Source of the DNA: Euzebya tangerina
GTDB taxonomy: Bacteria > Actinomycetota > Nitriliruptoria > Euzebyales > Euzebyaceae
Length of the DNA stretch: 64,000 nt
Direction: 5' to 3'
Assembly: GCF_003074135.1 (NCBI RefSeq)
Contig: NZ_PPDK01000003.1
Location: 310,001-374,000, forward strand
Every line of letters begins with the position of its first letter. Within the stretch, counting starts at the first letter, position 1. Below the pieces are notes generated by a model. It ran no database searches. It saw only the letters and a list, made by a program, of their open reading frames with translations, and was not told where the DNA came from. The translations under genes were made by a program, and so were the position numbers. Positions 1,565 to 48,634 of this stretch are shown in pieces.

Positions 1565-4426
1565 ATGTTACGCAACGCCAGTGTCCGCACCAGACTGATC
1601 GTCGGTGCCGCGATTCCAACACTCCTGTTGTTGCTCGCCGCCGGTTGGCAGGCCTTCGGAGCCTTCCAGGACTTCCGCGCCACCAACAACGTCGAGATCG
1701 TGGCCGACATCGCTGTTGACGGGCGTGGCCTGCTGAGCGCCCTGCAGGTCGAGCGAACCCAGTCGATCCAGTACGTCCTCGGCTCACGTGGCGACGACGC
1801 CGAGCGGACCGCCCGGCTCGAGGAGCAGCTGGCTGCCGCCCACGCCACCACCGACGTCGCTGCGGCCCAGGTCCTGTCTCTGGGCGATCAGCCGGACATC
1901 GAACTCCTCAGCGACCAGACCCGTGAGTCCTTGCGGGCCGCCGAAGCCGCCGTCGTCACCATCGCCGAGCTGCGCGAGCAGATCCTGTCCGGACAGGGCG
2001 CGAGCCTGGCCGTCTACAACAACTACGGCAGTCTGATCGGCTCGCTGTTGGACGCCGACCGCGACCTGCTGAACGAGGTTGACAACGCGCGCATCGAAGC
2101 GGAACTCCGCGCCCTGCAGACGGTGTCCAACGTCAAGGACGCCACGCTGGCCCTGTCCGCCGTCCGCCTGCTCGACGCCGACGCTGGCGTGAACCCGCGA
2201 AACCGCGAGCAGATCGAGGCTTCGGAGATCTCGGAGCGGCAGACCTGGCTCGAGATCGCCCAGGGCATCCTGACCCCAACGGAGCTGGACGAGCTGGAGC
2301 AGGCCGCGACTCCCGAGACGGCGTGCTTCGACGTGCCCGGTGCATCGGGCTGTGAGGACGGTGCGTCCGAGGTCGACTCCATGGTCGAGGGCAGCACCGA
2401 TGTGGCCGGCAGCCTCCAGGCACTGGAGCTGCGCTACGCCGCAGACGCCGTCGCCGCTGCAGACGCCGTCCGCAACGGCGCCGTCACGACCCTCGGTACC
2501 ACCGCAGTCCTCGGTGTGGTCGTCTTGGCCCTCCTTGCACTCCTCTCGGCGATCATCGGTGGTGTCGTCACGCCGCTGCGGCAGCTGACCAGCATCGCGG
2601 ACCGCGTGCGAACCTCTCTGAAGGAGGACGTCGACCGCATCGCCGACGGCGAGACGATCGAGGAGACCGCCTTCGATGGTGAGATCGCCGAAGAACTGAC
2701 CTCCCGTGCTGACGAGCTCGGCGAGCTGGCACGAGCGATGAAGTCATCGACCGGTGAGGCCGTCGAGATCGCCTCCCGACAGGCCGCCATCCGTGGTGGT
2801 GTTGCCCGGACGATCGAAGACGTCGCCCGGCGCGAGCAGACCCTGGTCGAACGGCAGCTGTCGCTGCTCGATGTCCTCGAGGACGCTGAGCGCGACCCCG
2901 ACCAGCTGGCTCAGTTGTTCAAGCTGGACCACCTGGCCACCCGCATGCGCCGGAACGCGGAGAACCTGTTGCTGCTGTCCTCCGGTCAGCTGCCCGGGGC
3001 ACACAACGCCCCGCCGGTGTCCCTGGTCGACGTGGTCCGCACCGCAGCGGCTGAGATCGAGCAGTACAACCGGGTCGACGTCCGCGTCGGCGTGTCCGCC
3101 ACCGTGGCTGGCTACGCCTCGACGCCGCTCTCGCACCTGCTCGCCGAGCTGATCGAGAACGCCGCCCAGTTCTCCCCGCCTGAGTCGCGTGTGCTCGTCA
3201 CGGGCTACACCGACCGGCACGGCATCACCATCGCGGTCTCCGACGAGGGCCTTGGCATGACCCAGGGCGACCTGGCCGACGCACGTCGCCGGCTGGCCTC
3301 GCCGCCACTGCTCGAGGTGGCGGAGTCTCGCCGCCTTGGCCTGTACGTGGTCGGGCTGATCGCGAACCGCCTGAACCTGGTTGTCGACCTCGACGTCAGC
3401 GACTCCGGCAAGGGCCTGACCGCAACCGTCGCGATCCCCGCGACCGCCTTCGTCGACGGCGTCGAGAATGCCGGCCAGCCCGCCCAGGACGAGTCCGCCC
3501 GTCGCGACGCCAACCTGCCCTCGAGCCTCGACTCCTCCGGAGATGCACTCGCGGCACTCAGCCAGCTGCTGGATGCCTCGCCGGCAGCCCCGCCGGAACT
3601 TCCGGCCGAGGTCGTGCCGAAGGAAGAGGTGGTCTTGCCCACCCGCGCCCGCTCCGAAGAACCCGCCAGCGACGGTGACCGTGGAGGCATCAGCCTGTCG
3701 GCTGCCTCCAAGGGACGGAAGGTCGACTTCGACCCCAGCTCGATCCGCGATCTGATGAGTGGCCTGAACGGCATCGGCGAGGAACTCAGCTTCGGCGACG
3801 ACTCGCCGTCGGACGTGCCCTCCGCAGCGCCGCAGGCCCCCGCCCCCGCTCCGGCACCGCAGGGTGCTGCTGCTCAGCCCGCCCGGGCGGCAGCGCACTC
3901 GCAGGCTCCGGGCAGCGAGCAGCCCATGCCGACTCGGCAGCCGTCCGTCACGGGCCAAGGCATGAACGGCCAGGGCACGAACGGACAGAGCATGCCACGT
4001 CCCGGCATGAACGGTCCCGACATGAACGGCCTGGCGGCAGCGGCTGGAGCATTCGGCTCGATCACTGGACAGCCGCAGCATCCGTCTGCTGGCGCACCGC
4101 CGCGGCAGCCAACTGCACCGCAGCAGCCTGCAGCGGGATCCGCAGCCCGTCCGGATGGCTTCCCGTCCGCACATCGCCCCAGCGGTGGGCCGGCTGACGG
4201 CCTGGCTGCTCCTGGCGAGCCAGCCACCCAAGCAGCGAGCCCCGCACCGATGACCACCGGGTTCCCCGGTCCATCAGCTGCTCGGCCGCAGAACGGACAC
4301 CCGAACCACCCTGACCAGCCCGACTCCGACCTGTCCGACTCCAAGCAACTGCGGCCGCAACGTCGTCGCCGCTCGACAACCCCATCCTGGTCCACCCCAT
4401 ACGCCCCGCAGGAGCAGAAGCAATGA
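1565..4426 (+). CDS. Conservon sensor histidine kinase (CvnA-like, nitrate/nitrite-sensor type)
   Basis: 953-aa membrane sensor kinase heading a conservon. TM1 lies near residues 12-28. An extracytoplasmic domain of about 250 residues has the L-x-x-ER-x-x-S pattern of nitrate/nitrite-sensing (NIT) domains. TM2 is at about 304-336, followed by HAMP. A helical segment carries LDHLATRMRRN (about 453-463), the conservon equivalent of the phospho-acceptor region. The ATPase has ELIENAAQF (N box, about 528-536) and DEGLGM (about 559-564). Residues from about 650 to the end form a Pro/Ala/Gln-rich tail of roughly 300 residues, including GMNG-like repeats (about 797-825), probably disordered. The stop overlaps the next start (ATGA). 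The true signal is unknown; NIT-domain assignment is by pattern. Confidence 0.88.
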   Translation: MLRNASVRTRLIVGAAIPTLLLLLAAGWQAFGAFQDFRATNNVEIVADIAVDGRGLLSALQVERTQSIQYVLGSRGDDAERTARLEEQLAAAHATTDVAAAQVLSLGDQPDIELLSDQTRESLRAAEAAVVTIAELREQILSGQGASLAVYNNYGSLIGSLLDADRDLLNEVDNARIEAELRALQTVSNVKDATLALSAVRLLDADAGVNPRNREQIEASEISERQTWLEIAQGILTPTELDELEQAATPETACFDVPGASGCEDGASEVDSMVEGSTDVAGSLQALELRYAADAVAAADAVRNGAVTTLGTTAVLGVVVLALLALLSAIIGGVVTPLRQLTSIADRVRTSLKEDVDRIADGETIEETAFDGEIAEELTSRADELGELARAMKSSTGEAVEIASRQAAIRGGVARTIEDVARREQTLVERQLSLLDVLEDAERDPDQLAQLFKLDHLATRMRRNAENLLLLSSGQLPGAHNAPPVSLVDVVRTAAAEIEQYNRVDVRVGVSATVAGYASTPLSHLLAELIENAAQFSPPESRVLVTGYTDRHGITIAVSDEGLGMTQGDLADARRRLASPPLLEVAESRRLGLYVVGLIANRLNLVVDLDVSDSGKGLTATVAIPATAFVDGVENAGQPAQDESARRDANLPSSLDSSGDALAALSQLLDASPAAPPELPAEVVPKEEVVLPTRARSEEPASDGDRGGISLSAASKGRKVDFDPSSIRDLMSGLNGIGEELSFGDDSPSDVPSAAPQAPAPAPAPQGAAAQPARAAAHSQAPGSEQPMPTRQPSVTGQGMNGQGTNGQSMPRPGMNGPDMNGLAAAAGAFGSITGQPQHPSAGAPPRQPTAPQQPAAGSAARPDGFPSAHRPSGGPADGLAAPGEPATQAASPAPMTTGFPGPSAARPQNGHPNHPDQPDSDLSDSKQLRPQRRRRSTTPSWSTPYAPQEQKQ

Positions 4427-36822: not shown

Positions 36823-38067
36823 CTACCCGTCGAGTGGTGGGACGGGCGGGTCACAACCGGCGACGCTGTCGACGGCCCATCCGCCCCCTCGTCCCGTGGC
36901 GTTGGCCTGCACGACCTCCTTGCCCCGCAGCACCAGGGTTGCTCGAGTTCCGTCCGCCGAGATCACGATCTCGCCGCCGTAGGTATCCCGATACGGCTCA
37001 AGTTGCTCCCGGAGCACCGTCTCCGCGTCCGGGGCGTATGCACCGCCCTGATCAAGTAGTCCGTCGATGCCCCAACTCCCTCCGGCGCACCGGTCCAGGT
37101 ATCCGTCGCGAGGTTGATCGACAGCTTCGACCTCGTAGGTGATTCGCACGATGTCGCCCTCGGAGAACTCAGGTTCGCCTTGGGTCGACGGCCGGGCCCA
37201 GCGGACGACCTGGTCGAGCACGTACCGGCCCGTCAAGACCGGAGTCGGACCAACCGCTGCATCGTCGGTCTGGATGCGGACGAGGCGGGACGCGGACTCA
37301 TCCTCGGTGAGCTCGACGTAGCGAAGATCGGTGGTACAGGGGATGACCACCTCGTCGCGCTCGGGGTCGTACTGGGCGCCACACCCTCGGCCAGACGTCA
37401 CGAGTTGACCCTCACCGAAGCGATTTTGTGTGATGCCCACGAAGCGTGGGTCGTCCAGCAGCAGATCACCGTCGCTGGACGTGAAGATGACATCGTGCCG
37501 TGCCTCACCGCCCTCCACGAACCGGTCCGGACGGGTGACCGAGACCGTGTAAGGAGCGTCGGCGGGCGTTTGGCCATCCAGCGCCAACAGTTCGATGGAG
37601 ACCCTGATGTTGATCACGTCGGATGCAGACGGTGGCGGAGTCGGCTGGAGTGCAACCTGCGCCTCGTCCAGCACAGCTTCGCACACCGCGGCCTCCCCGC
37701 CCAGGGCGATCACCGTCGTGGCGTCCAACCGACGAACCTCCTCAGCAACCTGAACGGGCAGATCGTTGCAGCCTGGCACCAGCAGAATCGGGCCGTCTGT
37801 CAGCGTTCCGCCGACGATGGCGTCCACGGGGTTGTCTGCGTTGGCCAAGTATGCGACATCGGCTCCGTCCGGGAACGCGCGCTGGGCGATGGCCACGGCC
37901 GTGTCGATCCGGGTCTCACCCGCCAGTCGGTCGCTGCTCTGACGGGTCTCGGCCATGGACGCTGCAGCGCCCGCCAGTACAAGGACCGCCAGACTCAGGA
38001 CGGTGAGTGACCGCCATCGGGCGGCCGATGGTCTCCGGCCTCGCGGGTGGACTGGCGGCGGGTGCAT
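36823..38067 (-). CDS. Secreted protein with one cell-wall-binding-repeat-2-like module
   Basis: 414-aa exported protein of unknown function. A signal sequence (about 18-40, LTVLSLAVLVLAGAAASMAE) is followed by SDRLAGETRIDTAVAIAQRAFP, the beginning of a cell-wall-binding repeat 2 (CWB2), ending near TVIALGGEAAVCEAVL. Only one repeat is seen, where three are normal. The remaining 280 residues contain six cysteines and no domain I recognise; they are rich in Asp/Glu and beta-like segments. Convergent with the upstream Uma2 gene's neighbours and not obviously in an operon; trpS lies 45 bp downstream on the same strand. Confidence 0.7.
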   Translation of the reverse strand: MHPPPVHPRGRRPSAARWRSLTVLSLAVLVLAGAAASMAETRQSSDRLAGETRIDTAVAIAQRAFPDGADVAYLANADNPVDAIVGGTLTDGPILLVPGCNDLPVQVAEEVRRLDATTVIALGGEAAVCEAVLDEAQVALQPTPPPSASDVINIRVSIELLALDGQTPADAPYTVSVTRPDRFVEGGEARHDVIFTSSDGDLLLDDPRFVGITQNRFGEGQLVTSGRGCGAQYDPERDEVVIPCTTDLRYVELTEDESASRLVRIQTDDAAVGPTPVLTGRYVLDQVVRWARPSTQGEPEFSEGDIVRITYEVEAVDQPRDGYLDRCAGGSWGIDGLLDQGGAYAPDAETVLREQLEPYRDTYGGEIVISADGTRATLVLRGKEVVQANATGRGGGWAVDSVAGCDPPVPPLDG

Positions 38068-38821: not shown

Positions 38822-39601
38822 ATGAGCGGCGACGTCCAGCCCATCGGCGTCGCCGTGGCGCTGGTGCTCATCCTCGTGGCAGCAGGGGTGTCGTGGCGGT
38901 TCAGGCTGGGCCTGATCCGCGACCTGGGTGGGGCGACCGTTCTCGCGCTGGTCCAGTTGCTCATCGTCGGCTCGGCGCTGGGCTTGATCATCGCGCCCGA
39001 GCAGCCCATCGCCTACAGCTGGGTGTGGGTCGTCGGAATCATCGGTGCCGCCGTGTGGACCGTCCGAAGCCGGGTGCCACACGCCCCCGGTGTCACCGTG
39101 GCAGCAGCGCTCGCATTCGGCGCCACAGCCGCGGTGTCGCTGGGCGTCCTCTTCGGGCTCCGGGTGTTTCCGCTGGAGGGGCGGACGCTGATCCCGCTGG
39201 CCGGGATGGCACTGGGCAACTCCATGACGGCCACCATCGTGGCCGCGAGGACGATGACCGAGCGCTTCGTGAGCGACATCGGACAGGTCGAGGCCGGCCT
39301 TGCGCTCGGGATGACGCCAGGTCAAGCGGTCGAACCCATGCTGCGCCTGGTCCTGCGGGATGCCCTCTCACCGCAGATCGAGCGCACCAGGACCGTCGGG
39401 ATCGTGTCCCTCCCCGGCGCGATGGTAGGGCTGATCCTGGCCGGCGTGGAACCGGTTGACGCGGTGCTGGTCCAGATCGTGGTGATGTACCTGGTCCTCG
39501 GAGCGGTCGCGACCTCGACGAGTGTGATTGCCCTGGTGATCAGCCGCCAGCTCTTCACCGCCGACTGGCGGCCACGTCGAGACGTCGTTGGAGACGCGTA
39601 G
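38822..39601 (+). CDS. FetB/YbbM-like ABC transporter permease (UPF0014)
   Basis: 259-aa membrane protein with seven or so helices. GGATVLALVQLLIVGSALG and LIPLAGMALGNSMTATIVAARTM match FetB (YbbM), and LGMTPGQAVEPMLRLVLRDALSPQIERTR is the cytoplasmic loop that contacts the ATPase. E. coli FetAB exports iron. No FetA-like ATPase gene adjoins it, so the partner must be elsewhere or shared. The 138 bp upstream hold no gene I can support. A GGAGCAGG Shine-Dalgarno lies just before the ATG. Confidence 0.87.
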   Translation: MSGDVQPIGVAVALVLILVAAGVSWRFRLGLIRDLGGATVLALVQLLIVGSALGLIIAPEQPIAYSWVWVVGIIGAAVWTVRSRVPHAPGVTVAAALAFGATAAVSLGVLFGLRVFPLEGRTLIPLAGMALGNSMTATIVAARTMTERFVSDIGQVEAGLALGMTPGQAVEPMLRLVLRDALSPQIERTRTVGIVSLPGAMVGLILAGVEPVDAVLVQIVVMYLVLGAVATSTSVIALVISRQLFTADWRPRRDVVGDA

Positions 39602-39656: not shown

Positions 39657-40868
39657 GTGAGCGCTCACTCGACGAAATTCAGCACCATGCCAATACTACT
39701 AAGAGTGCTCTCGACAGTCGTTTCTGTAGTGTCACTAATGGTTGCTGGTCCTGGCATTGCGCTGGGCGACACGCCGCCGCAGGACCCGGGGCTCTCCGTG
39801 GGCAAGGCGCACGATCATGCCGTGGCGGCTGACGTTGTCACGACGCTGGGCATCAACGGTGGCAGCGCGACGGGTCTGGGCGTCGGTGTGGCGTTGATCG
39901 ACACGGGTGTCAGCCCGGTTGCGGGACTCGAGGACGTGGTCTTCGGGACCGACGTGTCATCGGATCAAACCGTTCCGGCTCTTCGCGACCTCGACGCCTT
40001 CGGGCACGGGACGCACCTGGCCGGTCTGATCACGTCGGACCGTCCTGACGCGCCGGGCGTCGCCCCCGATGCGCGACTGGTGTCGATCAAGGCCGGGGCC
40101 TCCGACGGCTCGGTCGAGACCGAGCAGGTCATCCAGGCTGTCGAGTGGGCGACGGCGAATCGGACCAGCCACGGAATCGATGTGTTGGTGTTGGCGTACG
40201 GAACCGAGGACCGCGATCCGAATGCCGAGGCACTGGTCGAGGCCGTTGACGCCGCTGCTGAAGCAGGCATCGTCGTGGTCGTCTCGGCCGGCAACCATGG
40301 GGCCGAGGCGCCGGAGGTGTCCCATCCGGCCAGCAGCCACCGGGTCATCGCGGTCGGCGCCGTCGAGGGATGGCAGACGGCCGAGGCGTCCGACGACGCG
40401 GTTGCGGCGTACTCCCCCGTCGGGACGGCGCTGCGTGGACCGGACGTTCTGGCGCCGGGGACACGCGTGGTGTCGACCGGCGTGCCAGGATCGTGGTTGT
40501 CGGAGGCCAACCCGGTGGCGGACCGCGGACGTGGCCTGTTCCGGGGGACTGGCACGTCGCAGTCGGCTGCCATCGTCGGCGGGGCCGCAGCGCTGCTCCT
40601 CGAGGTGGCCCCCTCGCTCTCCCCCGACGAGGTCGCCAGTGTGTTGGTCCGGACCAGCACGGCGATCGATGGGAGCACGGCCGGCGTGATCGATGTCGAG
40701 GCGGCCCTGGCGGCCATCGGGGCATCTTCAGTCGACGAGGGGCCGGACCTAGGCTGGGACGGCCAACGCTGGGACGGCCAACGCTGGGACGGCCAACGCT
40801 GGGACGGCCAACGCTGGGACGGCCAACGCTGGGACGGCCAACGCTGGGACGGCCAACGCTGGGACTAG
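39657..40868 (+). CDS. Secreted S8 subtilisin-like peptidase with C-terminal WDGQR repeats
   Basis: 403-aa subtilase. A signal peptide spans about 11-37. The catalytic triad is D82 (LIDTGVSP), H117 (FGHGTHLAG) and S301 (GTGTSQSAAIVGG), and SAGNHG supplies the oxyanion Asn. The C-terminus is seven exact WDGQR pentapeptides plus a final WD, encoded by 15-bp repeats identical at DNA level. There is no propeptide of normal size, so processing may differ from standard subtilases. The GTG start has no clear Shine-Dalgarno beyond CAAGG. The upstream 55 bp contain GACTAGTC (39606-39613), which recurs before the other subtilase gene. Confidence 0.92.
   Translation: MSAHSTKFSTMPILLRVLSTVVSVVSLMVAGPGIALGDTPPQDPGLSVGKAHDHAVAADVVTTLGINGGSATGLGVGVALIDTGVSPVAGLEDVVFGTDVSSDQTVPALRDLDAFGHGTHLAGLITSDRPDAPGVAPDARLVSIKAGASDGSVETEQVIQAVEWATANRTSHGIDVLVLAYGTEDRDPNAEALVEAVDAAAEAGIVVVVSAGNHGAEAPEVSHPASSHRVIAVGAVEGWQTAEASDDAVAAYSPVGTALRGPDVLAPGTRVVSTGVPGSWLSEANPVADRGRGLFRGTGTSQSAAIVGGAAALLLEVAPSLSPDEVASVLVRTSTAIDGSTAGVIDVEAALAAIGASSVDEGPDLGWDGQRWDGQRWDGQRWDGQRWDGQRWDGQRWDGQRWD
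40755..40865 (+). repeat. 15-bp tandem repeat encoding WDGQR
   Basis: Seven identical copies of TGGGACGGCCAACGC (40755-40859) are followed by TGGGAC (40860-40865) and the stop codon. Perfect identity, including third codon positions, implies recent expansion or gene conversion, and copy number is likely variable. Confidence 0.97.
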
Positions 40869-40922
40869 TTCTTTGGCGGTACGCTCAGATACCGAGCGCA
40901 CAAGTCGATGATGTAGGGAGCG

Positions 40923-43349
40923 ATGTCCCAGACCAGCAGCGGTGGTGATGCCGGAGCACGGCGCATCTGGCTGCTCAGCGCTGCCCTGACCCTGGTCGCC
41001 CTACTCGGGACCGGCACGCTCCCGACGCCAGCACAGACCAGCCAGACGTTCCTGTCACTGGCCGCAATGACCGGTGCGTTCGTCATCTTCGAGTGGCAGA
41101 CCATCTCCATTCGACTGGCGAAGCAGACCACCAGCCTGACCCTCAGCGAGATCCCCCTGGTCATCGGCCTATTCATCGTCAGCCCCGTCGTCCTGGTCGT
41201 CTCACGGGTGCTCTCGGTCCTCATCAGCTCTCTGCTGGTGATACGGCAGCAGCCGTTCAAGGCCGCCTACAACGCGGCCTTCATGTGGCTCGAGACGCTC
41301 CTGTGCGTCGTCGCCTTCCAACTCGTCGCCCCCTCCGACGTGGGCGACGCCCTCCGCGTCTCCGTCGTGGTCCTGCTGGTCGCGATCATCACCGCCTTCG
41401 GCAGCACGGCGGCCATGTCCGCCGCCGTCTCGGCCTATCGGGGACAGCTGAAGGTGATCCGGCCGGCTTCCGTCCTCTACCAGACCTTCGGCCCCGCCTT
41501 CGCCAGTGCTGCGTTCGGCCTCCTGACGCTGGCGATCTGGGAAGCGTCACCGTGGCTCACCTGGGCCCCGCTCCTCACGGTCATCGTGCTGTACCTCGGC
41601 TATCGCAGCCACATCGACCTGATCCATCTTCACGAGCGGCTCGGTCAGGTGCTCACCTTCACGCGGGACACCAGCGGCGGTGACGGGGACGACACGGTCC
41701 TGGCACAGGTCCTGGGCACCACACGAGATCTGGGGGGCGTCCACCGAGCGGGGATCGTGGCGCACACCGCCGACGGGCAGGTCCTCTCAACGATCGGTGA
41801 CTTCGGCGATCGGCAGGCCCAGAACCTGCTGGAGGGGACGATCTCGGAGTCCGACCGCACCACCACGCTCACGTGGCCGCTCGGCGAGAACAGCGCGTTC
41901 ACGTTGATCGTCCAGACCGACCCCGACGGCCCCTCCTCCAGCGTCCTTGCCGGGACCATCTCACAGATCGTGAACCACGCCTCCGTCGCGCTCAGCAACG
42001 CCTCCAAGTCGGCTGCGCTCCGCGAACAGGCCGAGGATGCTGCCCGCCGGGCCCTCGTCGACTCGCTGACCGGGTTGCCCAATCGCTCGGCCCTGCTGAA
42101 GGAGATAGCCAAGATCCTGTCGGCCGAGATGCCCTTCGCGACGCTCCTCATGGACCTCAACAACTTCAAGGAGATCAACGACGCGCTGGGGCACTCCGCC
42201 GGCGACGACGTGCTGATCGAGGTGTCGAAGCGCCTCCAGCCGATGGCCGAGGACCTGCTGCTGGTCTCGCGACTGGGTGGTGACGAGTTCGCCGTCCTGG
42301 TGGCCGGGGATGAGGCGGTCGCTCGTCGGACCGCCCAGCGGATCCTGCGCGAGGTGCGCCGTCCGGTTCGTGTGGGTCAGTACAGCCTCCAGGTCGACGG
42401 CTCGATCGGCATCGCGATGTACCCGGAGGACGGCAAGGACGCGGTCGAGCTGCTCAAGCACGCGGATCTGGCCATGTACGACGCCAAGGCCAGCAGCGAG
42501 AAGGTGGTGACGTTCGGCGCGGCGGCAGCCGGTCGGGCGTTTCGACAGCTGGAGGTCAGCACCCGCTTCCGCGACGCCCTGGGCGACCGTGAGATCATCG
42601 CCGCCTACCAGCCTCAGATCGAGCTCAAGACGGGTCGACTGGTGGGCGTCGAGGCGCTGGCACGGTGGCACGACAACGAGCTGGGTCAGGTCCTGCCCGA
42701 GGAGTTCATCCGGGTCGCCGAGCAGTCCGGCCTGCTACAGGAGCTGACCGATGTGGTCCTCGACGACGCGCTGCACTGGCACTGCGAGTGGGCGCGAGAG
42801 GGCTTGGACGTCCCCGTCTCGGTCAACGTCAGCCCCCGCTCGTTGCTCGACATCGGGCTGCCACGCCGTGTCGATCGGCTGCTGGCACACCATGGCGCGG
42901 ACCCCACGAACCTGACACTCGAGATCACGGAGAGCAGCGTGATCAGCGATCCGGGACGGTCGTTGATCGTCCTCAACGAGCTGGCCGAGTTGGGCGTGCG
43001 ATTGTCGATCGACGACTTCGGGACCGGGTACTCCTCGCTGGCCTACCTGCAGCGGCTGCCCGTTCGCGAGATCAAGATCGACAAGTCCTTCGTGCTGCCG
43101 ATCGCAGCCGATCCGGACAGCAGCACGCCGCTGGTCGGCGGGATCCTGCGACTGTGCCATGAGCTCGGCTTCGAGGTGGTGGCGGAGGGCATCGAGACCG
43201 CCGCGATCCAGTTGACCCTGGAGACCATGGCGTGTGATCGAGGGCAGGGATTCCACATCGCATTCCCCATGCCTCCACAGCATCTGCCCGACTGGTCGCG
43301 AGCCCGTGACCGCAACGCATCGGACGCCACGCCGGAGCCGACCTACTAG
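40923..43349 (+). CDS. Membrane GGDEF-EAL protein (c-di-GMP synthase/phosphodiesterase)
   Basis: 808-aa integral membrane protein. About eight hydrophobic segments (8-230) form a MASE-like sensor. A linker of about 160 residues, weakly GAF-like, precedes a GGDEF domain with intact GGDEF at 452-456 and an EAL domain with EAL at 577-579. The EAL domain retains the DFGTGYSSLAYLQRLP loop and the catalytic Lys in KIDKSF. The inhibitory I-site is absent (EDLL in place of RxxD). Both activities could be present. AGGGAG precedes the ATG by about 4 nt. It lies between two secreted subtilase genes, 54 bp after the first. Confidence 0.93.
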   Translation: MSQTSSGGDAGARRIWLLSAALTLVALLGTGTLPTPAQTSQTFLSLAAMTGAFVIFEWQTISIRLAKQTTSLTLSEIPLVIGLFIVSPVVLVVSRVLSVLISSLLVIRQQPFKAAYNAAFMWLETLLCVVAFQLVAPSDVGDALRVSVVVLLVAIITAFGSTAAMSAAVSAYRGQLKVIRPASVLYQTFGPAFASAAFGLLTLAIWEASPWLTWAPLLTVIVLYLGYRSHIDLIHLHERLGQVLTFTRDTSGGDGDDTVLAQVLGTTRDLGGVHRAGIVAHTADGQVLSTIGDFGDRQAQNLLEGTISESDRTTTLTWPLGENSAFTLIVQTDPDGPSSSVLAGTISQIVNHASVALSNASKSAALREQAEDAARRALVDSLTGLPNRSALLKEIAKILSAEMPFATLLMDLNNFKEINDALGHSAGDDVLIEVSKRLQPMAEDLLLVSRLGGDEFAVLVAGDEAVARRTAQRILREVRRPVRVGQYSLQVDGSIGIAMYPEDGKDAVELLKHADLAMYDAKASSEKVVTFGAAAAGRAFRQLEVSTRFRDALGDREIIAAYQPQIELKTGRLVGVEALARWHDNELGQVLPEEFIRVAEQSGLLQELTDVVLDDALHWHCEWAREGLDVPVSVNVSPRSLLDIGLPRRVDRLLAHHGADPTNLTLEITESSVISDPGRSLIVLNELAELGVRLSIDDFGTGYSSLAYLQRLPVREIKIDKSFVLPIAADPDSSTPLVGGILRLCHELGFEVVAEGIETAAIQLTLETMACDRGQGFHIAFPMPPQHLPDWSRARDRNASDATPEPTY

Positions 43350-43468: not shown

Positions 43469-46400
43469 ATGGGACACACCCGTCTTTCCCGAGCACATCG
43501 ACACGTGCTCCTCCTCGGCAGCGTCATCGCCATGATCCTGGCTCTGATGCCTGCCATCCCCGGTCTCGCCGAGTCCGCGCAATCCGCAGACGAGCGCACC
43601 GAGACCACCGTCGCAGATCAACGAGACCAACTCGAGGAGGCCGGCGCTCGTGCGGTCCCCGCCGCAGGGGTGAACCAGTTCATCCCAGGTGAGAGCGAGA
43701 CCGGCCTGTGGATCGTCCGACTGACGGAGGACTCGTTGGCCGCCCACGCCGAGGGGCGGGCCGAGTTCCAGCAGGAGGGGGCGAACGGTGCCCGCCTGGA
43801 CGCGAACTCCGACGCCGCAGTGGCCTACTCCCAGCAGCTGACCAGCCGCCAGGACGTGGTGCTGGAGAGCGTCACCGATGTCCTCGAGCGTGAGGTGGAG
43901 GTGGCCTACCGCTACACCGCAGCCTTCAACGGATTCGCCGTCGAGGTGTCGGCGAACGAGGCCAGCAGCATCGCAGCGCTTCCGGGCGTTGCCAGCGTGC
44001 AGCCCGACTTCGTCCGCCAGCTGACCTCAGATGTCGGTCCCTCCTACATCAACGCCCTCGAGTACGTCGACGACGTGGTCTCGCCGCTGATCGAGACCGA
44101 CACCGGCACGGGCACGTTGGGTGAGGGGATGGTCGCCGGCATCCTGGACTCCGGCATCTCGCCCGCCAACCCCTCCTTCGCGGCCAGCGTCCCGGTCGCC
44201 GACGGCGGCGACGGCTACGTCCACACCTACGACGGCGACTACCTCGGGGTCTGCGACCCGACGAACGACAGCTCGGACCCGCTGAACCTGCCCGACCCGT
44301 TCTGCAACGACAAGCTCATCGGTGCCTGGAACTTCGTACCGGTGGCCCAGTCGGAGTTCGGCGCCCGCGACGACGACGGTCACGGGTCGCACACGGCCTC
44401 GACGACCGCCGGAAATCAGGTGCTCGCCACCATCGGTGACACCGAGACCGAGACGCAGGTCACCATCTCCGGTGTGGCTCCCCACGCCCACATCATCTCC
44501 TACCGCGTCTGCGACATCGGGGGCTGCCCCGGCTCGGCGATCCTGGCCGGGATCAACCAGACGGTGCTCGACGGCATCGTCGACGTGATCAACTACTCCA
44601 TCGGTTCGAGCGCACCGGCTCGGCCCTGGGAGGACCCTGACACGTTGGCCTTCCTCGACGCTCGCGCGGCCGGCATCTTCGTCGCCACCTCCAACGGCAA
44701 CTCGGGACCGCTGCCGGCGACCGTCGGCTCTCCTGCCGGCACGCCCTGGATGACCAGCGTCGGTGCCAGCCAGCACAGCCGGTCCTACCTGCAGACCCTC
44801 GACGTCATCGAGGGATCCACGGTGGTCGACAGCTTCACCGGCAAGGGCTTCACACCCGGTCTGCCCGATGCTGCACCGATCGTCTACGCCGGCGATTTCG
44901 GTAGTCCGCTGTGCATCCCCGAGGACTTCGAGCCCGGCACCGACTTCTCCGGCCAGATCGTGATCTGTGACCGCGGCGAGATCGGCCGGGTCCAGAAGAG
45001 CGTCAACGTCGCTGAACTCGGTGCCGTCGGCTTCATCCACGTCAACGACCCCGTCAACTCCGCGTCATTGAGCGGCGACGCCTTCGCACTGCCCGGCATC
45101 CACCTGACCGACGTCGATGGTGGTGCCCTGAAGGACCTGGTCGCCGCCGGCGCGGTCGAGGGGACGATCAGCCCGACCGAGGCCGTCATCGACGACGACT
45201 TCGGTCTGCTGCAGGCCTCGTTCTCCTCCCGCGGGCCGAACCGCGGCGTGGACTACCTGACCCCGGACGTCACCGCTCCCGGTGTCGACATCATCGCCGC
45301 GATCGGCATCGCCACCGCGGCCAACAACGCACCGGTGGAGTGGGGCTTCCTCTCGGGAACGTCGATGTCCTCACCGCACGTCGCAGGCGCTGGTGTCCTG
45401 CTGGCTGCCGCCCACCCCGAGTGGACGCCAGCCGAGATCCAGTCCGCTCTGATGCTGACGGCGCGGTACGACGGCCTCCTGAAGGAGGACAACGCCACGC
45501 CGAGTGATCCGTACGACCACGGGGCCGGCTACGTCGACGTCGACTCTGCCAACGACACCGGTCTGATCATGGATGCGCCGCTGATCGAGTACACCGACGC
45601 CAACCCGGCTGAGGGTGGCGACCCGACCGACCTCAACCACGCCTCGCTGTCGAACCAGGACTGCCTGGACAGCTGCAGCTGGACCCGGACCATGACGCCG
45701 CTCATCGAGGGCGACTGGGTGGTGTCTGTCGTGAGCGATGACGGACTGGACCTGACCACGAGCGCCGATGGCGTGGAGGTCAGCACCACACCGGACACCG
45801 ACTTCGACATCGAGGTGACCGCCTCGGTGACCGGCGCACCGGTCGGGGAGCCGCTGTTCGGGCGCGTCGTCTTCGATGCCGACGACCCGTCGGTCCCGGA
45901 TGCCCACCTGACCGTCGCCGTGATCCCCTCCGCCGGAGTGGTTCCGGACGAGATCGTCGCCGACACCCGTCGTGACGCGGGCAGCGTCGTCGAGGAGGGC
46001 CTGGAGACCATCGCGGCCGACCCGCTCGAGATCGAGGTCACCGGCCTCGTCGCCGGCGACGTCACCGAGGGTGCGGTCCCGCAGGACCCGACCAACGACG
46101 AGATCTACGACACCGACAGCGGCACCGAGACCACCGTCGTCGAGGTACCTGCGGGCACCAGTCGCTTCATCGCCGAGATCGTGGACTCCGAAGCGCCGGA
46201 CCTCGACCTCTTCGTCGGGACCGGTGACACTCCGTCTGCCGAGACGGAGTTGTGCCGGTCGACCTCGGCCACGGCCGCGGAGTTCTGCGAGCTGACTGAT
46301 CCGGAGGCCGGCACCTACTGGATCCTGGTCCAGAACTGGACCGCCTCGGCACCCGATGCCGTGGACGCCTACTCCCTGTCGACCGTCCTGGTCGGCGGCG

Positions 46401-48634
46401 ACGAGGGCAACCTCGCCGTGATCCCGTCCGTGGAGTCGCCCGACTTGGGTGTCCCCTACGACCTGACCGTCGCCTACGACGAGGAGATGGAACCAGGCCG
46501 CAGCTACTACGGCACGATCACCCTCAGCTCGGATGAGAACCTCATCGGGACCATCCCGGTGACGATCAACCGCTTCGAGGACGACGTGGTCAAGACGGCG
46601 AACGTCGAGGAAGCCGAGACCGGTGACACCGTCAGCTACACCATCGAGGTGCTCGACAACGTCACCGACACCGACATCGAGTACGAGATAGTCGACGAGC
46701 TGCCCGACGGCATGGAGTTGGTGGAGGACTCGATCCAGGTCGACGGGGAAGACCCCGGCGATGAGGTGTCGGTCGACGACAACACCATCACCTGGACCCC
46801 CACCCAGCCGACGCTGGTCGGCTTGGACGGAACCTACGAGGTGGTGGTCGGTGACCCCGCCGGCTCAGACCTCGAGATCTCCTGCTTCAACAACTTCAGC
46901 TACCTGGACCTCACCGCGTTCGGCATTCCACCCGGTCCTGACTTCGACGGCGACCTGTTCGCCTTCACCGCCTTCGCCACGGGTGAGCCGTTGCCGTTCT
47001 ACGAGGACGCCTACCCGGGTGTGGTCTTCACCTCCGATGGTTACCTCGACTACACCTACGACGGCATCGTCTTCGACGGCGCCACCATCCCCGATCCGGC
47101 GGACCCGAACGGCATCACCGCGCTGCTGATGCAGGACCTGGTGGTCTCGGCGGATCTGACCCCGGGATCGCAGACGGGCATCCGTCTGGCGTCGACCGGC
47201 GACACGCCGGGCGCGCTGTGGATCGTCGACTACGACACCGTCGCCCCTGCGGGTGGCGGAGCCCCGTCGACCTTCCAGTTCACCGGCGTCCGCGGTGTCT
47301 CCGACGCCCCTGGCGTCTACGAGTTCGGCATCGGGTTCGAGACCGTTGGCGACCTGTCAGAGACGGCAACCGTCGGGGTCGAGAACACCACGGGCACCAT
47401 CGGGACCGCCATCTCGAGCCTGGGTGACGGCGTCGATGACATCGTCGACGGCGCGACCTTCTGCTTCGACTACGTGGGCCCGTCCTTGGACCCGACGGTC
47501 CTCACCTTCGACGCCACGGTGGCCGAGGGTGTGGAGGGCACAGTGACCAACCAGGCCATCTCGATCGACACGGCTGACCCGTTCAGCCAGCTGGTCCCGA
47601 CCAGCGCCTCGGTCGAGGTGACCGACACGCGCCCTGAGCCGACGGACCCCCCGACGGAGCCAACGGACCCGCCAACCGAGCCCACCGACCCCCCGACCGA
47701 GCCCACCGACCCACCGACCGAGCCGACCGACCCCCCGACAGGTGAGGTGGAGCGTCTGGCCGGACTCAGCCGGATCGAGACGGCCGTCGCCATCTCCCAG
47801 AACCTCTTCCCCGAGGACGGGAGTGCCGACGCGGTGATCATCGCTCGGGCCGACATCCCCTTCGATGCCCTCGCATCCACGCCGCTGGCACCGGAGCTGA
47901 ACGGCCCGCTGCTGCTCAGCCCGACGGCTGAGTTGCACCCCGCGACGTTGGCGGAGATCGAGCGCGTGCTGGCTGACGACGGCCAGGTGATCGTGCTCGG
48001 TGGCACGGCCGCGCTCTCCGCCGAGGTGGAGGCCGAACTTGCCGCGCAGGGCGACGTCACCCGACTGTCCGGTCCCACCCGTGTGGAGACCGCGCTCGAC
48101 GTGGCCGACTTCATCGGTGATCCGGATGCCATCCTGATCGCCAGCGCCGACAACTTCCCGGACGCGCTGACCGGTGGTGCGGCGGCAGCCCAGGCCGACG
48201 GTCTGGTGCTGCTCTCACCCGAGGCCAGCGCACACCCCGCCGTCGTCGCCTACCTGGAGGACCGGCCGGACACCGACGTGTTCGCCATCGGCGGGCCTGC
48301 CGCCGGTGTCTTCCCTGACGCAACCGCGATCAGCGGAACGGGCCGGGAGGCCACAGCACGACTCGTCGCCGAGGAGTTCTTCGACGACCCGACCACGATT
48401 GGCCTGGCCGTCGGCAACAACTTCGCCGACGCGCTGACGGGTGGCGCTCATGCGGCACTCTCTGGCGGACCGGTCCTGTTGACCCCCACCGACCTGCTCC
48501 ACCCGGAGGTGGAGGCCTACATCTGCGGAACCGGCCCAGCTGACGGCTTCATCTACGGCGGTACGGCCGCGATCGATGAGAGCGTCGAGGACGCCTTCAC
48601 CGACCGGCTGAGCGGGGAGGGCTGCGACAGCTAG
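43469..48634 (+). CDS. Large secreted subtilisin-like peptidase with cell-wall-binding repeats
   Basis: 1721-aa exported protease. In order: signal peptide (about 11-34); inhibitor-I9-like propeptide (about 60-185); S8 catalytic domain with D227 (ILDSGISP), H305 (DGHGSHTAS) and S632 (SGTSMSSPHVAG); an inserted PA domain (about 450-565); a fibronectin-like Fn-3 region; a pre-peptidase C-type domain (about 870-980); a DUF11-like adhesion domain (about 1035-1120); a PTEPTDP linker (1390-1424); and three CWB2 repeats to the end (ERLAGLSRIETAVA, TRLSGPTRVETALD, ISGTGREATARLVA). The CWB2 repeats probably hold it on the cell wall. It is transcribed alone; hairpins follow at 48652-48731. Confidence 0.93.
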   Translation: MGHTRLSRAHRHVLLLGSVIAMILALMPAIPGLAESAQSADERTETTVADQRDQLEEAGARAVPAAGVNQFIPGESETGLWIVRLTEDSLAAHAEGRAEFQQEGANGARLDANSDAAVAYSQQLTSRQDVVLESVTDVLEREVEVAYRYTAAFNGFAVEVSANEASSIAALPGVASVQPDFVRQLTSDVGPSYINALEYVDDVVSPLIETDTGTGTLGEGMVAGILDSGISPANPSFAASVPVADGGDGYVHTYDGDYLGVCDPTNDSSDPLNLPDPFCNDKLIGAWNFVPVAQSEFGARDDDGHGSHTASTTAGNQVLATIGDTETETQVTISGVAPHAHIISYRVCDIGGCPGSAILAGINQTVLDGIVDVINYSIGSSAPARPWEDPDTLAFLDARAAGIFVATSNGNSGPLPATVGSPAGTPWMTSVGASQHSRSYLQTLDVIEGSTVVDSFTGKGFTPGLPDAAPIVYAGDFGSPLCIPEDFEPGTDFSGQIVICDRGEIGRVQKSVNVAELGAVGFIHVNDPVNSASLSGDAFALPGIHLTDVDGGALKDLVAAGAVEGTISPTEAVIDDDFGLLQASFSSRGPNRGVDYLTPDVTAPGVDIIAAIGIATAANNAPVEWGFLSGTSMSSPHVAGAGVLLAAAHPEWTPAEIQSALMLTARYDGLLKEDNATPSDPYDHGAGYVDVDSANDTGLIMDAPLIEYTDANPAEGGDPTDLNHASLSNQDCLDSCSWTRTMTPLIEGDWVVSVVSDDGLDLTTSADGVEVSTTPDTDFDIEVTASVTGAPVGEPLFGRVVFDADDPSVPDAHLTVAVIPSAGVVPDEIVADTRRDAGSVVEEGLETIAADPLEIEVTGLVAGDVTEGAVPQDPTNDEIYDTDSGTETTVVEVPAGTSRFIAEIVDSEAPDLDLFVGTGDTPSAETELCRSTSATAAEFCELTDPEAGTYWILVQNWTASAPDAVDAYSLSTVLVGGDEGNLAVIPSVESPDLGVPYDLTVAYDEEMEPGRSYYGTITLSSDENLIGTIPVTINRFEDDVVKTANVEEAETGDTVSYTIEVLDNVTDTDIEYEIVDELPDGMELVEDSIQVDGEDPGDEVSVDDNTITWTPTQPTLVGLDGTYEVVVGDPAGSDLEISCFNNFSYLDLTAFGIPPGPDFDGDLFAFTAFATGEPLPFYEDAYPGVVFTSDGYLDYTYDGIVFDGATIPDPADPNGITALLMQDLVVSADLTPGSQTGIRLASTGDTPGALWIVDYDTVAPAGGGAPSTFQFTGVRGVSDAPGVYEFGIGFETVGDLSETATVGVENTTGTIGTAISSLGDGVDDIVDGATFCFDYVGPSLDPTVLTFDATVAEGVEGTVTNQAISIDTADPFSQLVPTSASVEVTDTRPEPTDPPTEPTDPPTEPTDPPTEPTDPPTEPTDPPTGEVERLAGLSRIETAVAISQNLFPEDGSADAVIIARADIPFDALASTPLAPELNGPLLLSPTAELHPATLAEIERVLADDGQVIVLGGTAALSAEVEAELAAQGDVTRLSGPTRVETALDVADFIGDPDAILIASADNFPDALTGGAAAAQADGLVLLSPEASAHPAVVAYLEDRPDTDVFAIGGPAAGVFPDATAISGTGREATARLVAEEFFDDPTTIGLAVGNNFADALTGGAHAALSGGPVLLTPTDLLHPEVEAYICGTGPADGFIYGGTAAIDESVEDAFTDRLSGEGCDS
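47636..47740 (+). repeat. 21-bp repeat encoding EPTDPPT linker
   Basis: Five units of 21 bp encode EPTDPPT before the cell-wall-binding repeats of the large subtilase. The copies differ at third codon positions, so unlike the WDGQR repeat they are old or under selection at protein level only. Confidence 0.93.

Follow-up and report, generated by a model that had tools for sequence, protein, structure and literature searches.

The window, i.e. the whole stretch of 64,000 nucleotides that was analyzed, carries on its plus strand a gene for a subtilase (S8) with a C-terminal Trp-pentad array (39657..40868), which starts with GTG and encodes 403 aa. The protein matched the Pfam Peptidase_S8 model (PF00082) with an E value of 2.6e-39; the domain covers residues 75-336 (39879..40664, plus strand), contains the catalytic residues D82, H117, N213, and S301, and resembles subtilisins in sequence. 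The N-terminal hydrophobic segment MPILLRVLSTVVSVVSLMVAGPGIALG (39687..39767, plus strand) was judged by eye to be a likely Sec signal peptide, and the subtilase is, as far as its sequence tells, probably exported. The array (40755..40865, plus strand) consists of seven identical WDGQR units and a final WD. Read in frame, the array runs through seven TGGGACGGCCAACGC units (40755-40859), TGGGAC (WD), and then TAG, which makes seven full units and eight Trp, the last Trp being the penultimate residue. Tandem Repeats Finder located the repeat at 40753-40865 (period 15, 7.5 copies, 100% matches), and zero base differences were found among the seven 15-bp units. The sequence-only reading, which had described a subtilase with an exact seven-unit WDGQR array up to the stop codon, was thus borne out by the Pfam match and the repeat.

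A pattern of five spaced Trp matched the window seven times, four on the plus strand and three on the minus strand over the same array, and had 0 matches in each of 100 shuffled windows. A 299-aa open frame with WPSQR units on the minus strand over the array was read as a shadow of the repeat, and the DNA identity of the array itself as recent repeat homogenization in the window gene. Pfam matched nothing outside the S8 domain and nothing in the tail alone, where no known wall-binding or sorting domain was found. In an alignment of 20 proteins, the window subtilase was short, being devoid of a region that many relatives have between the catalytic domain and the array. AlphaFold assigned pLDDT values below 50 to residues 359-403. 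Two further identities were rejected: the best NCBIfam match, T7SS mycosin (TIGR03921), scored 120 bits, far under the curated cut-off of 278.75, and a defense system was discarded since PADLOC returned for this protein only matches to a generic subtilase model (1.8e-24) and to IetS (2.5e-06).

The next gene on the plus strand (40923..43349) encodes a membrane sensor of 808 aa with an N-terminal multi-TM domain, a GGDEF domain (residues 377-525), and an EAL domain (residues 548-780); the sequence-only reading made no mention of this neighbor. The gap between the two genes (40869..40922, plus strand) is 54 bp long and contains, by eye, a ribosome-site-like AGGGAG before the ATG; no terminator-like sites were found between 38700 and 43600. 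The multi-TM domain (40950..41540, plus strand) has five segments by simple hydropathy, and its counterparts in six relatives have six or seven. It had no Pfam match of its own, and thus none to MASE9 (PF20972). Among ten sensor N-termini that were scanned, that of locus L209 passed (29.3 vs the 24.3-bit cut-off), those of L054 (22.6) and L187 (22.9) fell just below it, and seven were unmatched. The HMM built from the GGDEF-type TM domains also matched the kinase-type ones, and we infer through this HMM, common to the relatives, that the window sensor may be related to MASE9; its MASE9-like character is conveyed only via these homologues. Like MASE9 and the other MASE domains, it is an N-terminal multi-TM domain ahead of GGDEF/EAL or histidine kinase outputs; unlike them, the present sensors mostly have a Trp-pentad array as their partner, and most of their N-termini (7/10) go unmatched. 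PADLOC matched nothing in the window sensor, whereas the kinase region of the L054 sensor matched PDC-M43B (3.4e-07). Just upstream of the subtilase gene lies a UPF0014 permease gene (38822-39601), for which the FetB model scored only below its cut-off. A UPF0014-family gene also adjoins the subtilase site in genomes G001 and G003, and none was called in G002; at the equivalent sites there are one array subtilase in G001, three in G003, two in G002, and one in the window.

The window array is one of many C-terminal Trp-pentads that make up a family, with W every five residues and usually the form WxGxx. Loci were gathered by running the window protein against 41 related genomes and by applying Trp-spacing patterns to 396 genomes of the phylum and to a named genome collection, the latter giving at least 120 stretches. 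In the loci scanned for arrays (the window, L035-L054, and L085-L214), 88 ORFs that reach 200 aa contain five or more in-register Trp. Of these 88, 59 matched a subtilase HMM built from them, and 58 of the 59 are distinct because L120 apparently duplicates L041; the other 29 ORFs include at least four shadow frames of subtilase arrays. The taxa of the array subtilases include, among the matches listed, Dactylosporangium aurantiacum, Acidothermus sp., Frankiales, Acidimicrobiia, Thermoleophilia, and Chloroflexi, and the Trp register recurs in both Actinomycetota and Chloroflexota. The phylum-wide Trp-spacing pattern matched 82/396 genomes, a figure too noisy for counting, since a reversed control pattern also matched. 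A separate related-loci scan with the window locus found no relatives. In the open-access PMC literature, with subscription papers outside the search, nothing was found on a Trp-pentad tail or on the protease-sensor pair described below, and passages from PMC1274311 were unrelated to either.

The array proteins share the catalytic domain and the D/H/N/S residues with the S8 subtilases, e.g. subtilisin BPN'; for the relative L187, AlphaFold modeled a subtilisin fold. The window protein differs from these by its C-terminal Trp-pentad array and by the linkage to one type of membrane sensor. D/H/N/S were kept in 56/56 complete rows of the alignment, the window included, the remaining four of the 60 rows being partial. 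A pseudoprotease, suggested by a motif scan that missed His in some members, was ruled out by this proper alignment. The last Trp was the penultimate residue in 37/58 array proteins (binomial p 5e-13 against the one in five expected, with relatives treated as independent). The longest array, in L206 of the phylum family f14 (L205-L210), has 37 Trp in register. In this family, Arg-bearing units occur as ARQW in L205, L206, and L209 and as GRIW in L207, and the sensors end in a histidine kinase in L207-L209, while L210 has a subtilase-sensor pair with GGDEF-EAL output.

Sensor HMMs were built from ten downstream neighbors of array subtilases. A same-strand sensor was the next downstream gene in 45/59 array subtilases, or in 44/58 without the duplicate. 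Where at least 1.1 kb was available downstream, the sensor came next in 41/49, and in 32/39 after removal of the ten HMM-training loci. Nine array genes had less than 1.1 kb downstream; the start of a sensor was still visible in three (L152, L160, and L206) and not in six (L119, L126, L165, L190, L192, and L197), with L197 having its sensor upstream. Among the eight of 49 without a downstream sensor, the L037 gene at 12256 and the L043 gene at 460 precede a second array subtilase that has one, L050 and L144 have a divergent adjoining sensor, and at L180 an EAL end lies upstream, truncated where the locus stops; near the array subtilases of L035, L039, and L131, which had room, no sensor was found. 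The two adjoining array subtilases of L043 (460-3953) carry 15 and 19 Trp in register and have one sensor in common. The outputs of the 45 downstream sensors were GGDEF-EAL in 28, histidine kinase in 11, and GGDEF in 2, while in 4 nothing beyond the TM region was visible; at L205, the kinase frame had no TM match and the TM match was in another frame.

As a control, 21 tail-less subtilases from 20 loci were inspected, and 0/21 had such a sensor adjacent. They were lower-ranking matches of the window-protein search in the 41 related genomes, three of them with less than 1.2 kb downstream, and were more distant (E values of 1e-25 to 1e-55 with the subtilase HMM, vs 2e-61 or better in the array set), i.e. 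they are not tail-less members of the array subtilases' own clade. With these controls (0/18 with room), the Fisher p value was 2e-10 against 41/49 and 2e-9 against 32/39. One control, L235 in the window's own genome, is followed by a frame that matches histidine kinases weakly (1e-12) and has no TM-domain match.

The protease and its sensor are also co-inherited. Quick trees, with many weak forks, were made from 55 rows of catalytic domains and 54 rows of sensor N-termini, and they agreed with a Mantel r of 0.58 over 41 pairs, none of 5000 permutations being as high. When partners were shuffled only among the paralogues of one genome, 1/5000 reached the observed value. The nearest neighbor was common to both trees in 20/41 pairs vs 1.06 expected, and the kinase vs GGDEF output needed 3 changes on each tree. 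Genome G014 has one pair of each output type (L046 and L047): L046 clusters with the identical three loci on both trees, one of them kinase-type (L143), and L047 with identical kinase-type loci on both.

A reverse search with the first 366 residues of the window sensor gave 28 sensor matches in 13/41 genomes, 16 of them at array-subtilase loci. Around the remaining 12, no array subtilase was seen, and these initially partnerless sensors did not form one group on the sensor tree (7 changes). Beside four of the 12, in two congeners, a short protease-free Trp-pentad ORF lies divergently. The ORF at L240 (5337-5429) encodes 31 aa with five Trp and ends in W-A; its likely orthologue at L241 (6220-6327) encodes 36 aa with six Trp and has the same end. 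The ORF at L239 (5005-5235) encodes 77 aa with twelve Trp in register, and its likely orthologue at L242 (6305-6634) runs off the contig, the missing part being maybe at the end of another contig (L281). Three of the four have a ribosome-site-like sequence before the ATG (GGAAGGA at L240 and L241, AAGAGG at L239), and no signal peptide was evident by eye in these peptides. The protease-free arrangement is so far known only from a single genus, where it comprises two orthologous groups. Among the other sensors, L236 has a degenerate Trp tail next to masked bases, and no array was found near seven of the 28 (L237, L238, L243, L244, L245, L246, and L247), with L245 in the window's own genome and L247 at the edge of a contig. 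In G003, which has two contigs, the WxGxx pattern formed nine clusters, each within 1.8 kb of one of eight sensor matches; all 8 sensor matches were within 1.5 kb of an array cluster, vs 0.6% of random places. Further arrays in L278-L280 (L280 being in the window's own genome) and L282-L284 had no TM-sensor match nearby; at L284, there is a nearby GGDEF gene without such a match.

Since the loci are united by the array and the sensor, the protease being usual and not constant, the array was read as the part that the sensor recognizes. We lean, by a little, towards the view that the two genes form a signaling module, in which the sensor would recognize the Trp-pentad array and the protease would carry or control it. 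Gene 1 would supply a subtilase that is probably exported, keeps its catalytic residues, and has a Trp at every fifth residue of its C-terminal array, and gene 2 a membrane sensor with a putative MASE9-like multi-TM domain at its N-terminus and a cytoplasmic output, which is GGDEF-EAL here and histidine kinase elsewhere. The membrane domain of the sensor would recognize the array, the protease would carry, expose, or release it, and the presence of the array, its state, or its release by the protease may change c-di-GMP turnover or a phosphorelay. Such a pair, which would be an undescribed one in actinobacteria, is favored by the close linkage, the co-inheritance, the preserved catalytic residues, the purely synonymous divergence within several arrays, the penultimate Trp of many proteins, and the standalone arrays beside sensors that have no protease. 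Against it count the array subtilases and sensors near which no partner was found, the occurrence of standalone arrays in a single genus and their want of an evident signal peptide, the low pLDDT of the tails, the inhomogeneous arrays of L044 and L214, the excess of nonsynonymous neighbor differences over all arrays, the missing Pfam match in the window's sensor domain, and the more distant kinship of the control subtilases. A bolder version is offered tentatively, as one that could well be wrong: W-x-G-x-x arrays, standalone or on an active secreted subtilase, might be a new ligand class that acts as a switch for c-di-GMP enzymes or histidine kinases through a cognate MASE9-like domain that reads it, the own units of paralogous pairs serving as an address and the protease editing or releasing the ligand. 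We know of no input for most of the MASE-type sensors that stand ahead of c-di-GMP enzymes and histidine kinases. A linked and co-inherited partner, which in two loci has shrunk to a peptide of 31-36 residues, would open one such input to a direct test, and the module would also account for the repetitive Trp tails on actinobacterial subtilases.

Alternatively, the array may be an anchor at the surface or membrane interface, or a binder of cell wall or glycans, and the sensor a functional neighbor that reads, e.g., products of proteolysis. We hold this to be the less probable course, if a serious one. It is favored by the placement of these Trp-rich arrays at the C-terminus of proteases that are probably exported, by a composition that is flexible except for W and G, and by AlphaFold, which weakly suggested strands in the tail of L187, at a pLDDT of about 30-51. 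A second subtilase two genes downstream in the window (43469-48634, 1721 aa) has three CWB2 wall-binding stretches, which also speaks for it. However, protease-free arrays adjoin sensors in two congeners, the arrays are strongly linked to one sensor domain, and no wall-binding family was found in the window protein or its tail. The earlier suggestion that the array binds something is plausible; a known wall-binding domain to go with it was found in neither place.

For the form of such a tail, we considered the pentapeptide-repeat proteins (PF00805), which have the consensus A(D/N)LxG and fold into a beta-solenoid. The arrays resemble them in the period of five and, in many units, in a small residue two before and a Gly two after the central residue; they differ in that the central residue is Trp instead of Leu or Phe and in that AlphaFold gave no confident solenoid. 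The second tail of L043 (WTGAS units) matched as pentapeptide repeats in Pfam (28.4 bits vs the 20.2 cut-off, with no single stretch passing), the window tail and four other tails or peptides had no such match, and two pentapeptide models gave one match each among 20 whole proteins (E 0.001-0.004). A link to pentapeptide repeats is clear only in this L043 tail, where a solenoid is suggestive. Matches to lamprin, seen in one peptide and one protein, were taken as low-complexity chance.

A further alternative, which we consider rather improbable, is that the array is a tandem precursor of peptide pheromones, so that the protease, or another one, cuts between the units and the freed pentapeptides activate the sensor. 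Yeast precursors of the alpha-factor type likewise have short, near-identical tandem units and are paired with a receptor gene, in whose place the sensor gene stands here; unlike them, the present arrays are fused to a subtilase or have no evident leader. The units were compared over 719 units from 58 arrays, with the last unit of each array excluded. Trp is invariant by definition, Gly was at position 3 in 540/719, and positions 2, 4, and 5 were variable. Mean identity at positions 2-5 was 0.64 within arrays vs 0.30 when the most frequent units of different arrays were compared, which agrees with a pheromone, as do the standalone arrays and the paralogous pairs of one genome, each having its own units. 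Several arrays are conserved at the amino-acid level, another point in its favor: the differences between neighboring units were only or nearly only synonymous (synonymous/nonsynonymous) in the second gene of L043 (18/0), in L037 (10694; 16/0), and in L160 (38/1), L165 (26/2), L211 (19/1), L152 (5/0), and L050 (5/0). Nevertheless, many arrays have mixed units (L044, L131, and L214), the counts being 1/46 in L044 and 2/17 in L214; for these two, a structural repeat fits better than a fixed ligand. The strict five-residue spacing of Trp, together with the in-register C-terminus, also suggests a continuous structure. Over all arrays, there were 653 synonymous vs 895 nonsynonymous neighbor differences, and DNA-identical units occurred in the window array and in that of L099.

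The identity of the window units had led the sequence-only reading to a contingency locus, in which slippage alters the copy number between strains and so tunes the protein. Copy-number turnover does occur: array length ranges from 6 to 37 Trp in register across the subtilase genes and differs between two standalone orthologues (5 vs 6 Trp). However, a repeat unit of 15 bp preserves the frame, and frame switching is thus impossible. When copy number was compared between congeners, with one genome per species, two pairs of orthologous subtilases from G003 and G002 had equal numbers of Trp in register (8/8 and 16/16), which speaks against rapid variation of those tails. With each tail taken from its region's first Trp onward, synonymous/nonsynonymous codon differences were 10/6 in the tail and 97/33 in the body of the first pair, and 9/2 and 113/72 in the second. 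The outcome named beforehand as refuting such a locus, constant copy number in many strains with synonymous differences between copies, was nearly matched by these two congeners, the count being constant and the tail differences mostly synonymous. Given also that units diverge only synonymously in several relatives, we regard a contingency locus as very improbable. That the array is a functionless, low-complexity by-product of replication slippage can practically be dismissed: exact repeats arise easily, a 15-bp unit keeps the frame, and nonsynonymous differences accumulate in many arrays, but the Trp register is shared by Actinomycetota and Chloroflexota, the differences within several arrays are purely synonymous, and the linkage to the sensor is tight.

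Other repeats and wall-binding proteins were seen in the window. The 1721-aa subtilase at 43469-48634 has, besides its CWB2 stretches, an I9 inhibitor, PA, PPC, and DUF11 domains, and a Thr/Asp/Pro-rich linker with a 21-bp repeat at 47636-47739. On the minus strand, a 414-aa protein (36823-38067) contains one CWB2 domain. A 953-aa protein (1565-4426) matched a custom HMM as a histidine kinase (1e-09) and carries a degenerate 15-bp repeat at 3953-4031 with G-M-N-like units.
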